Assembly: GCA_907165065.1 (NCBI GenBank)
Contig: OU015533.1
Span: forward strand, 25,312,578 to 25,376,577
DNA from: Caprimulgus europaeus
Taxonomy: Eukaryota > Chordata > Aves > Caprimulgiformes > Caprimulgidae
Direction: 5' to 3'
DNA length: 64,000 nucleotides
This document shows positions 28,880 to 61,973 of this stretch, in pieces. Position numbers and translations under genes: made by a program. Below the pieces are notes generated by a model that made no database searches, was not told the origin of the DNA, and saw only the letters and a program-made list of their open reading frames with translations. The stretch's first letter is position 1. Each line of letters starts with the position of its first letter.

Positions 28880-28917
28880 CTGAAATTAGAGAAAAATAGA
28901 AATTACCTTTTCAGGGG

Positions 28918-28977
28918 AATCACAGAATCACAGAATGTTAGGGATTGGAAGGGACCTTGAAAGATCACCTAGTCCAA
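28918..28977 (-). mobile_element. CR1 LINE 3'-end fragment
   Basis: The plus strand reads a repeated ATCACAGA motif followed by GGGATTGGAAGGGACCTTGA and AAGATCACCTAGTCCAA, the reverse complement of the avian CR1 3' end with its ATTCTGTG terminal repeats. The element is therefore in the same orientation as TTN and 5'-truncated to about 60 bases. It makes up almost half of the 134-base intron between E24 and E23. CR1 supports a bird or other sauropsid host. Confidence 0.9.
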
Positions 28978-29013
28978 AGAAGCAGTGAAAAAATATGAAA
29001 AGCTAAAACTTAC

Positions 29014-37445: not shown

Positions 37446-37478
37446 CTGAGCTTCTTCAGGTACATTATGACCTCCCTC
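37446..37478 (-). CDS. TTN: TTN exon E42: 33-base microexon inside an Ig
   Basis: Eleven codons, EGGHNVPEEAQ, phase 0 at both ends. The transcript strand has acceptor TAG at 37479-37481 and donor GTAAAG at 37440-37445. It joins E43 (ending GKAKTTTK) to E41 (starting VEATDTR). Removing it would keep the frame and only shorten a loop, so it could be a cassette exon. The reading rests on frame and splice signals; no transcript evidence is available here. Confidence 0.85.
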
Positions 37479-38919: not shown

Positions 38920-39349
38920 ATATGGGATCTGCTGCTAAGGCAGGATCTGACGGTTCACTGGGAGGGCCAATTCCAGCAAGATTTTCAGCCATAACTCTAA
39001 ACTGATATTCAACACCTTCAGCCAAACGAAGCACATTGTACTCTAAACCTTTTACTGATGGTTTTGTTACTGGAGCCCTGTTAACACGTGACCAGTAGAC
39101 ACCTCCCACTTCTCTCTTCTCCAACCAATATCCAGTTATTGGGCTGCCACCATTGTCCAAAGGAGGCTCCCAAGTCACCAGCATTGATGATCTTGTGCGA
39201 TCTAAAATTTTTGGCTTTCCAGGAGGTCCAGGAAGGCCATAGGGATCCTTAATAACAACTTTTTCTGAGAGGCATTCATCACTTATTCCATATTTGTTTA
39301 CAGCCCGGATTCTGAATTGATATTTTTCATCTGTTACAAGATTCCATAC
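38920..39349 (-). CDS. TTN: TTN exon E45: Fn3 C-terminal half plus a complete Fn3
   Basis: 430 bases, phase 0 in, phase 1 out. It begins VWNLVTDEKYQFRIRAVNKY (the end of the Fn3 from E46) and runs without an intron through KDPYGLPGPPGKPKILDRTR into the next Fn3, with [20 protein letters not shown] and YQFRVMAENLAGIGPPSEPS. It is the only D-zone domain edge outside E23 that lacks an intron. Confidence 0.94.
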
Positions 39350-57278: not shown

Positions 57279-57545
57279 GTTCTACATTGAGAAAACATGA
57301 TGTCTTAAAATCCTTAGCATCACAGGTATAAGTTTTTGCATCCTCTAGTGTGCAGCCATGGATAATGAGTTTTCTGACCCTGCCATCAGAAATTATATCA
57401 TATTTCTTTGTTTTGTGTATTTCTTCTCCGTTTTTGAACCATTTAACTTTTGCATTTTCCCTGGAAACTTCACATTCCAGTATTGCAGTAGCCTCTTCTT
57501 CAACAGTCTGGTCCTCAAGTGGTTTAGTAAATTCAACTGGGGGTT
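57279..57545 (-). CDS. TTN: TTN exon E85: one I-band Ig domain
   Basis: 89 codons. EPPVEFTKPLEDQTVEEEAT, AKVKWFKNGEEIHKTKKYD, EDAKTYTCDAKDFKTSCFLN. The D-x-G-x-Y motif reads DAKTY. Confidence 0.95.
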
Positions 57546-58400: not shown

Positions 58401-58524
58401 CTTTAACAAAAAGATTTGCTTGAGTTCGGAAATCTTTTGCTGTCAGTGATACCTCTCCCGCATCTGTTAACTTGACATCTCTAAGAATAAGTGTGTGAAC
58501 TCTCCCTTCAGCACGTGTCATGAC
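58401..58524 (-). CDS. TTN: TTN exon E86: C-terminal part of an Ig
   Basis: 124 bases, phase 0 in, phase 1 out. VMTRAEGRVHTLILRDVKLT, DAGEVSLTAQDFRTQANLFV. The acceptor is AAG after TTTATA with a poor pyrimidine tract, but the frame from E87 (EPSDK to VMTR) fits the family. D-A-G-E-V replaces D-x-G-x-Y. Confidence 0.9.
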
Positions 58525-60952
58525 CTTATAAATGACATAAAACCCCTTTGTAAGTATCTACAACATATATTTATGAAATATTTAATGAACTAACATCGCT
58601 ATTTATTGTTATCAGTGGAGTTTGTTTACTTTTGTATGAAATTTCAATAATTTCTTTTTGTACATACTAGATACAGTTCAAGGCACAAATACTTTGAGGA
58701 TTTTGAGAATTATTTCTGTTTTGTCATTTCACTTACAAGAAATTGTAATTTTAAGTTTCCTCATGCTTTAATGTATTTGTGCCCTTATATTAGAAAACCT
58801 GAGTCTACTATCAAAGTTCAAAACGAGGCTGACTTGAGATCATGTTTAGTTTGAACAGGTACTAATAAATATGAAAGTAAGTAAATTTATGGGCAAAAAT
58901 TGGTATTATTCCTGGCTACATCTAAAGTAAAAACTTTCAGAGATATAAAGAGATTTGGCACTCCCCTCACACATTTTTGTAAATGCCAATTTGACTTCAT
59001 ATTATTAATTTTTGCTAAAAAATTCTGCCTAAAAAGCACCATTTCCATGTTCATCTATTGCTGAAACTACTTTGCAATCATGAGTTTGAATTGGGCTACT
59101 CCTACACAAACATCCCTTTTCTCGAGGGGGTATTCAAGGATACGTCCTGCATTAAAGCCATTAAGAGGGCTGTTAGTCATTCATGCTGTAAATTTTAACA
59201 TAGCTCTTGAAGATTTCCATTTATTTATTTTCAGATAAGTATGTGATAAAGTAGTAGATGCCGGTTTAGAAAAATAAAGACAAGCTTCTGCTAAGGAAGA
59301 AGCATAAAAGATTAAGTTACTTTTGAGAAGGCAATCTCTTTTGCTTCAGAGGGAAGGAAGGAACTAAGAGGCTTTCCTTCTTCCCAAAAGTCTCTGAGAA
59401 CTAGTGCTAGTGAATGCTTATCTGAAAGAGATTGAGGTGAAGCCAAATATATATAACCAAGATAAGCAGTAAAGATAAACAAAGAAGTCACATCAATAAA
59501 GGTTATATGTGTACAGCTGAATGCCAGCTGTAAAATAATGGTTTGAATTAAAAACAGCTGAAATGAAACATTTGTACAATTAGATGAATTGTTGAAGACA
59601 TTAGTAAAAGTGTTTCAAGAGGCTATGTCAAATGGGCAGAATGTGATGCATCAAGTAAATATATAGTTCACTCTGAATTTCTTGATAAAATTTCAACTGA
59701 AGTCAAATAACAGTTTTGACTGTATAAGTAAACTGAATGAAAATCTAGATTTTTTTTTTTCCATGTAATTGAAATGACAGCTCAGACAGATCAGAACAAA
59801 GAAATGGTCCACCATACAGAATACTGAACATTTTTCTTGCCAGGCAGTAATAATTATCAAGACACTGCACTGACCAATAGGTTTCCACATTTTTATTCCT
59901 AGACTCAGAAGAAATTACCTTGATTTATTACATCTCATCTGCTGAGTTTCAATTTTGTTTGTCTGTCCTTCAATACTGTAATATGGTTTCCTATCACCAC
60001 AAACAGTTTTTCTCCTCCTATTTCTAGATTCTATTTTTTTTAATGAAAGAGTTTTTATTTATGCAAATTTGGTGAAGCTCAGAAAGGTCTAGCAAAACCT
60101 GAAAATAATATGTTAAAAATCGCATTAAAAGAAAAAAAAAATCTTTACCAAAGTATTTTTAGCAGCATTTTTACATGTTCTGAAAGTTTGTTAGGTCATG
60201 TATCACCTTTAAAGTTCACTTTGTCTGAGGTTTCCAATTTGTATTTTCATTTGCATTATATGTCTTAGGCTTAGTACATGCAAAAGAAGTGTTATTCATT
60301 TATGTTTTATGTTTCTTAATGTATTACTTTATATTTCTTTATGTATTTCCACTAATATTAACTTTAAATATTAAACCGACTGCATTCCAAGCCACTCAGA
60401 TCTCTGAATTAAGAGCTAGCACTTGATGAAGGGTTAAAAATAGCTAGTGAGAAGTGCTTGACAAGCAAATCTGCCCAGAAAGTTATCTGGAGCACCAGAA
60501 CAAATGCCCGAAAAGGAATTTGAATCCTCTTAATCCCCTTATATGCAGAACTGGACTGCAACTCAGCATTCAGGAACAAAAAAAGCATTTCCTGATAGCA
60601 CAAAACCCTCTCACTACAATTAACCTGAGCAAAAATAATTCAGTAGCTCTGAGGTTGAGTCTACAACAGAATTAGGCACAAAATACTGTTGTTATGATTG
60701 CTGTTTTTTGAACCTTAGTTTCCCTTTGTATGAGAAATACTTCTAGAATTCCAGAATACTGGAATTTATGGGGAAAAAAACCCACTATATCTGATTTAGT
60801 GAGGATTTACTATTTGGCACAGCAGCACTACTGTATGCTGTGCCTTAGCACTTCTACGGGCAGAAGGTAAATGAGAAATAAAGAACGGGAAAAGAGTTGA
60901 AAGAGAGGAAGGAGGAAGAAACATGAGGAAAAATAAAGTCTAGTTTCTTTAC
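58525..60952. other. Intron E87-E86, 2,428 bases, the longest in the window
   Basis: Follows the candidate Cronos first exon. It contains one perfect MEF2 consensus, TTAAAAATAG (60434-60443). A few such sites are expected by chance in 64 kb of AT-rich DNA. No mobile element or RNA gene is recognised. Confidence 0.6.
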
Positions 60953-61095
60953 CTTATCACTGGGCTCCAGTTTCTTTCCTTGCAGGAACCACTCTACTGG
61001 GATTCCCTCATAAGAGAGTTCGCAATCGAAGGTTGCTGATTCCCCGGCTGTCACTGTTACATCCTTGAGGGGTCTCAGCAAGCCAATTACTCGAG
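60953..61095 (-). CDS. TTN: TTN exon E87: N-terminal half of an Ig; possible first coding exon of Cronos titin
   Basis: 143 bases in the full-length mRNA, AAG acceptor after CTTCTCCTTACC. ARVIGLLRPLKDVTVTAGES, ATFDCELSYEGIPVEWFLQG, ends KKLEPSDK in phase 0. The frame stays open upstream of the acceptor to ATG-ATG at 61112-61117 (MMSSPYQ then ARVIG), so a transcript starting in the upstream intron could begin translation here. By count it equals human exon 240, next to which the Cronos promoter was reported. Confidence 0.93.
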
Positions 61096-61117
61096 CTTGG
61101 TAAGGAGAAGACATCAT
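61096..61117 (-). promoter_or_regulatory. Possible alternative start (ATG-ATG) in frame with E87
   Basis: On the minus strand AAA-ATG-ATG-TCT (ATGs at 61115-61117 and 61112-61114) is followed by SSPYQ and joins the E87 frame with no stop. The first ATG has A at -3. An in-frame TAG lies farther upstream (13th codon from 61204), so this pair would be the first in-frame start. Confidence 0.45.
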
Positions 61118-61158
61118 TTTCAGATTAGTCACTTCTACCCAAGAGAGAGCTGCTGCCC

Positions 61159-61176
61159 TTATGTACTAATCTCCAT
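61159..61176 (-). promoter_or_regulatory. Five-residue upstream ORF with perfect Kozak context
   Basis: The minus strand reads GCCACCATGG around 61174-61176, giving M-E-I-S-T and a stop at 61159-61161. It is in a different frame from the E87 ATG pair and ends about 41 bases before it. It matters only if a transcript starts upstream of 61176. Confidence 0.45.
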
Positions 61177-61846
61177 GGTGGCTTCTCTTAAGAGAGACAG
61201 ACATCGCAATGCTGCTCTTTAAATTCCCTAAATAGAAGAGGCCACCCTGGGTTTTTAGGGGGAGGGCTGGTCACCTAAAATTTCCTATTTGCAGAGAGTG
61301 TTTCTTTAAATTGAACAAGGTCAGCAGGAAAGTTGTCGTGCATCTGTCTCCCTGCCAAGCCTTGCATGCCTTTTGCTAGATAAGGCATGTGTTTTCCAAA
61401 ATAGCGAGGGCCAGGATTGGAGTGGGAAACAAGTGATCTTCAACTGTGTGATCTGTCCCTGTCCATCAAGCTCTTAACCCTATCCCCAGATATCACTGTG
61501 ATCTGATCCTCTCAGGTTTACATGATATTTTAATACACTAAGGCCTTTGCGTGTAATACTTTGATTTCATAACAACATATGATGCCAGACCATGAAGCAC
61601 CCTTCAAGGCCATCTCCTTATTTTTACTTCTCCTATATGAATTAACTATATAAAAGGTTAAAAAACAAATAGGACATTCCTTAACTAAAAAATTAAGATG
61701 GCTTGAGTAATTAATCCTTAACTTGCTGTTCTGGAAAGAATTGCTGTGGGTTCAATACAGTATAGAGATTTGCCCATCTGATCAAAAGAGGCAACGAGTA
61801 CCTTGTTTTCACTTAATTAGTTGATTTCAGTTTAAAAGAAACTTAC

Positions 61847-61973
61847 GTTTCACTCGAAGGTGAGCACCGGATTTAGCATTTGCTGCTTGGAAATCTACTC
61901 CACCAGCTTGATCTAAGCGTACATTGTACAGTGTAAGGAAGTGCTTTTTGCCTTCCTCCTTGATTTCACACTC
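61847..61973 (-). CDS. TTN: TTN exon E88: C-terminal half of an Ig
   Basis: 127 bases, phase 0 in. ECEIKEEGKKHFLTLYNVRL, DQAGGVDFQAANAKSGAHLR. It completes the Ig of E89. D-Q-A-G-G-V replaces the usual D-x-G-x-Y. Confidence 0.93.

Follow-up and report, generated by a model that had tools for sequence, protein, structure and literature searches.

Cronos, a shorter titin, is transcribed from an internal promoter next to exon 240 in human and at the corresponding place in mouse and zebrafish. The initial annotation of the DNA studied here had described this system, and its account is correct by Zou et al. 2015 (PMC4720518). There, 5' RACE maps the Cronos start to 256 bases before e240 in the human gene, to 257 bases before e223 in the mouse gene, and to 110 bases before e116 in zebrafish; the initiator methionine lies 12 (human), 12 (mouse), and 7 (zebrafish) amino acids upstream of the exon, and H3K4me3 and DNase peaks lie over human exon 240 (PMC4720518). 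In human, GATA4, NKX2-5, and TBX5 mark an accessible site where Cronos starts (PMC6449405), and the protein, of about 2.3 MDa, is expressed in fast muscle and heart in the mouse (PMC7478974). The internal titin promoter is also treated in PMC12854356 and PMC12054628. Judged by titles and abstract openings, none of the literature matches listed reports a bird Cronos promoter.

We compared these systems with a 64,000-nucleotide stretch of DNA from Caprimulgus europaeus (hereafter, the window), the minus strand of which, according to a splice-aware Viterbi model, carries the titin gene between the distal I-band and the giant exon of the A-band. Exons are numbered E1 to E91 from the third and final pass of this model, which comprises 91 exons; the giant exon, E1, runs from 14526 past the end of the window. 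Two earlier passes returned 71 and 88 exons and both lacked E87, among others, because overly strict splice thresholds or coding scores had excluded them. The final model over-extends E45, the donor of which we placed by hand at 38920, as in both earlier passes; its 33-base exon E42 is putative, and some multi-domain exons were left as found. This 33-base exon, at 37446-37478 (EGGHNVPEEAQ), would leave an A-band Ig domain split into three exons. A 134-base titin intron at 28880-29013 holds the 3' end of a repeat, which we take to be CR1-like, with two ATTCTGTG octamers, about 41 bases before the acceptor; such a repeat suits a bird or another sauropsid. Across its genome of 1.18 Gb, the segment at 60960-61480 matched only itself; the protein encoded by E87 to E85 found no relative among bacterial and archaeal genome contigs or viral contigs, and Rfam at gathering thresholds yielded 0 matches over the whole window. 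A PDB sequence search returned 26 distinct sequences with E values up to 1e-10 (titin, MyBP-C, obscurin, and other Ig chains), which played no part in the assignment of orthology.

The intron under study spans 751 bases (61096..61846, minus strand) between E88 (61847..61973, minus strand) and E87 (60953..61095, minus strand), the latter 143 bases long and entered in phase 1. E87 encodes the first half of one I-set Ig domain and E86 (58401..58524, minus strand) its second half, as determined with Pfam, while E85 (57279..57545, minus strand) encodes one Ig domain in a single exon of the gene model. The initial annotation had placed the equivalent of human exon 240 at E87 by counting 86 exons, and this placement is backed by a primer peptide, by the number of exons and their total coding length, and by how the exons are laid out in mouse. 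E87 stands 86 exons before the giant exon and thus corresponds to human exon 240 of ENST00000589042, the numbering of Zou et al. 2015 (PMC4720518). Human qPCR primers for Cronos and full-length titin are printed in PMC11827849; the one common to both, CronosFullTTN_R, encodes CELSYE, a peptide found once in the six frames of the window, at 61024 on the minus strand inside E87, and its DNA matches E87 at 15/20 positions, with no better placement anywhere in the window. The human FullTTN_F primer from the same paper encodes LHNCRL, and E88 encodes LYNVRLDQ at 61931; the pattern L[HY]N.RLDQ, built to fit both primer and exon, occurs once in six frames. Because the DNA of this second primer matches E88 at 10/20 positions and is bettered elsewhere in the window, its support for E88 as the orthologue of human exon 239, the last exon before Cronos, counts at the peptide level only.

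Coding length gives a further check. Human exons 253-326, high-inclusion exons ahead of the 17,106-base exon 327, comprise 22,749 coding bases (PMC9845391); because that paper counts A-band exons to 358, it appears to follow a 364-exon numbering, so that its exon 327 would be exon 326 in the 363-exon numbering. Here, the stretch from E75, where the FN3 exons begin (in Pfam, E76 is Ig and E75 fn3), to E2 comprises 74 exons and 22,836 bases, which differs from the human figure by 87 bases, or 22,752 bases once the E45 donor is corrected by hand. Since E45 was set by hand and E42 is putative, this agreement is one check of three and no proof alone. Mouse exon 225 codes one Ig domain (PMC7189229), as does E85, two exons after E87; the arrangement fits the mouse layout, with E86 and E85 as the equivalents of e224 and e225, if PMC7189229 and Zou et al. 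number exons alike, and on the same proviso the mouse Cronos promoter before e223 lies in the same place as the intron described here. E87 is near certainly orthologous to human exon 240, mouse e223, and zebrafish e116. The intron at 61846-61096 is thus very probably the Cronos-promoter intron, equivalent to human intron 239 (ENST00000589042) and followed by the same Ig segment.

Within this intron, the stretch adjoining E87 (61096..61480, minus strand), our candidate for the Cronos promoter and 5' leader, is unusually rich in G+C. Its G+C content is 0.455, compared with a mean of 0.334 and a maximum of 0.403 among controls, such that 0/131 overlapping control intronic windows reach its value; it ranks top of 21 acceptor-side intron windows (3.4 SD above the other 20) and top of 32 intron tiles, and the rise stops near 61500. 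This composition and the site cluster described below, neither of them remarked on in the initial annotation, are more unusual than the motifs that it listed. The initial annotation had based its promoter call in part on CArG-like, GATA, E-box, and TATA-like motifs. All four types are indeed present—two CArG-like sites with one mismatch each (CCTAAATAGA at 61227 and CCAAAATAGC at 61396), one GATA site (AGATAA at 61378), four E-boxes (at 61341, 61386, 61430, and 61441), and four TATA-like sites with one mismatch each—but the set does not exceed chance. Exact CArG and exact TATAWAW sites are absent from 61096-61480, and 0/4 of its E-boxes are CAGCTG. The fraction of 200 dinucleotide shuffles with at least the observed count was 0.11 for CArG-like sites, 0.61 for GATA, 0.13 for E-boxes, and 0.27 for TATA-like sites, and all four types were found together in 40% of the 131 control intronic windows and 24% of the 200 dinucleotide shuffles. 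Because this co-occurrence is at chance level, the listed motifs are no evidence for a promoter; of the original claim, the position in the orthologous intron stands, whereas the motifs cited for it lend no support to function. A TATA-like TTTAAA with an adjacent CArG/MEF2-like TTCTATTTAGG (61218..61237, minus strand) could form an alternative core promoter, with a start near 61190, and is likewise not beyond chance; TATA-like sites with one mismatch are frequent in these introns, at a control mean of 13.6 per window.

If the human and mouse offset (256/257 bases; PMC4720518) holds, the predicted transcription start falls at 61351..61352 on the minus strand, and around it we found a motif cluster with 8 counts in 111 bases (61341..61451, minus strand). 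The cluster contains 4 E-boxes and one each of GATA, CArG-like, NKX2-5 core, and T-box-like sites, the NKX2-5 core coinciding with one E-box; the presence of GATA and NKX2-5 cores around this position is in line with the GATA4, NKX2-5, and TBX5 marks at the start of human Cronos. Eight counts were reached in 0/500 shuffles of the 111 bases, 0/300 of the region (best window), and 0/200 of the intron, figures that are optimistic because the limits of the cluster and some of its motif types were picked after the sites had been seen, the offset being taken from the literature. MEF2-like sites were left out of this shuffle count after none turned up in the cluster; when they are included, a count of 8 is attained by 0.9% of 696 overlapping control windows. 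For E-boxes alone, the corresponding shuffle fractions were 0.006 (111 bases), 0.023 (region), and 0.03 (intron), and GATA, CArG-like, NKX, and T-box sites taken singly each occur in 12-28% of the 696 control windows.

Of 31 other introns, 1 also reaches the count of 8, which speaks against the promoter reading; it is the intron directly after E87, equivalent to human intron 240. That intron carries CAGCTG E-boxes at 59514, 59525, and 59555, spaced by 11 and 30 bases (about one and three helical turns), and GATA sites at 59460 and 59473. Nowhere else in the window do three CAGCTG sites fall within 60 bases, and 0/1000 shuffles of the intron produced such a triplet; 59460-59560 is a candidate muscle enhancer, some 1.6-1.8 kb beyond the putative Cronos start in the downstream direction.

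Upstream of E87, its reading frame continues through the acceptor and for 23 codons into the intron without a stop. An in-frame ATG pair, as the initial annotation had claimed, is present in this extension (61112..61117, minus strand), with ATGs at 61117 and 61114 forming codons -7 and -6 before the split codon of E87 and giving a predicted Cronos N-terminus of MMSSPYQ-A-RVIGLLRPLKD. An in-frame ATG within 12 codons upstream occurs at 10/89 exons, E87 included, two such ATGs at 3/89, and an in-frame ATG at exactly codon -7 at 3/89, again including E87; the pair is thus weak as a departure from chance. Its first ATG lies 7 codons upstream, where the human and mouse initiator methionines lie 12 upstream; 7 is the methionine distance of zebrafish ttna (ttn.2) cronos, before e116, if PMC4720518 counts alike. 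The zebrafish start, by contrast, is 110 bases upstream of its exon, whereas the densest motif cluster here lies near 256.

We compared the human Cronos 5' leader with this intron through one 20-base primer only. Over the whole intron, the human Cronos-specific forward primer reached 13/20 at best, a score equaled in 13% of minus-strand windows and not significant. Primer and intron have in common an exact 8-mer, ACGCAAAG, which lies 457 bases before E87; the score there is equaled in 61% of the other windows on the minus strand. Over the last 130 intron bases, the best placement was 11/20, 29 bases upstream of E87, also not significant. The DNA at 61096-61124 reads LKMMSSPYQ in frame, and the primer at this last placement reads RKAVSSP against LKMMSSP. 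The alignment would put the human methionine, 12 codons upstream, opposite a GTG here; at 11/20 and not significant, it was not used.

A 256-base leader would carry earlier ATGs at 61343, 61204, and 61176. The last of these opens an upstream ORF of 5 codons (MEIST; 61159..61176, minus strand), out of frame with Cronos, and sits on the sense strand in a perfect Kozak context, GCCACCATGG (61182-61173), the sole exact GCCRCCATGG on the two strands of the window; the chance expectation is a mean of 0.1 on one strand over 20 shuffles of the window. The upstream ORF stops 41 bases before the Cronos ATG pair. Splicing of a leader with the Kozak ATG into E87 was dropped by eye, the donor being poor. 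The upstream ORF either argues against efficient translation of Cronos when the leader is long or serves as a control element. It is a speculative and decidedly unlikely idea that Cronos in birds is controlled through this ORF at translation in addition to transcription, with birds having kept the zebrafish initiator at codon -7 and mammals having moved to -12; were it so, the upstream ORF would throttle Cronos output, which could be released by leaky scanning, by reinitiation, or by transcription starting downstream of the ORF.

What the analysis of this DNA shows is that the intron and its exon are orthologous to those of Cronos, that an in-frame ATG is present, that the G+C content is anomalous, and that motifs cluster. 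We consider 61096-61480 on the minus strand to be probably orthologous to titin's internal promoter for Cronos, because the feature is common to fish and mammals and because the composition and site density of the segment are unusual. We infer transcription from this intron, together with its start position, its tissue, and the use of the ATG pair, along the following lines. The intron preceding E87 would be opened by transcription factors of muscle and heart, and RNA polymerase II would initiate within it, most likely near 61351 (mammal-like) or 61190-61205 (zebrafish-like). The transcript would then run on into E87, leaving the splice acceptor unused, and from there to the titin 3' end its splicing would be normal.

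The zebrafish-like start is a variant of this explanation, in which a short leader begins near 61190-61205 under the TTTAAA at 61218-61223 and the cluster at 61341-61451 acts as a proximal enhancer. The zebrafish start, just 110 bases upstream (PMC4720518), speaks for it, as do the adjoining TATA-like and CArG/MEF2-like sites at 61218-61237, and the ATG at 61343 would be bypassed. Human and mouse nevertheless concur on 256-257 bases (PMC4720518), and sites resembling TATA with one mismatch are too common in the control windows to single out this one; we regard the short leader as possible, although doubtful. If instead the promoter has been lost or weakened in this lineage, the intron would be ordinary, and its G+C-rich stretch and motifs would reflect chance or drift. 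The chance-level frequency of the listed motif set fits such an intron, as do the in-frame upstream ATGs, not rare at 10/89 exons within 12 codons, the upstream ORF with its strong Kozak context, and the human Cronos primer without a significant match. Against these stand a composition that is extreme among the compared intron windows of this gene segment and a motif cluster above its shuffles, the latter partly post hoc. Moreover, since the promoter is common to fish and mammals, its loss in birds would require a special event, and we think an ordinary intron unlikely.

The segment might also have been kept for a role other than that of a promoter, whether as an enhancer of full-length titin or as an element that acts on splicing or chromatin at the split Ig exons E87 and E86. 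In keeping with a splicing role, the E87 acceptor is below average, ending in AAG and ranking 23/90 from the weakest by a simple score, and A or G at -3 is found in 8/90 acceptors. The E86 acceptor also ends in AAG, yet the acceptor-side window of its intron falls outside the eight most G+C-rich of 21, and the activity known at this site in three vertebrates is that of a promoter (PMC4720518). Such a role thus appears very unlikely, and we retain the orthologous Cronos promoter as the preferred reading of 61096-61480.

A Cronos promoter in a bird is the expected orthologue of the known ones and no surprise. Cronos has been invoked to account for the differing severity of titin truncations and for A-band formation with little Z-disc-anchored titin. 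A mapped bird promoter would close the gap between fish and mammals and permit tests in the chick embryo, and would reveal where the promoter and the short N-terminus are under constraint.
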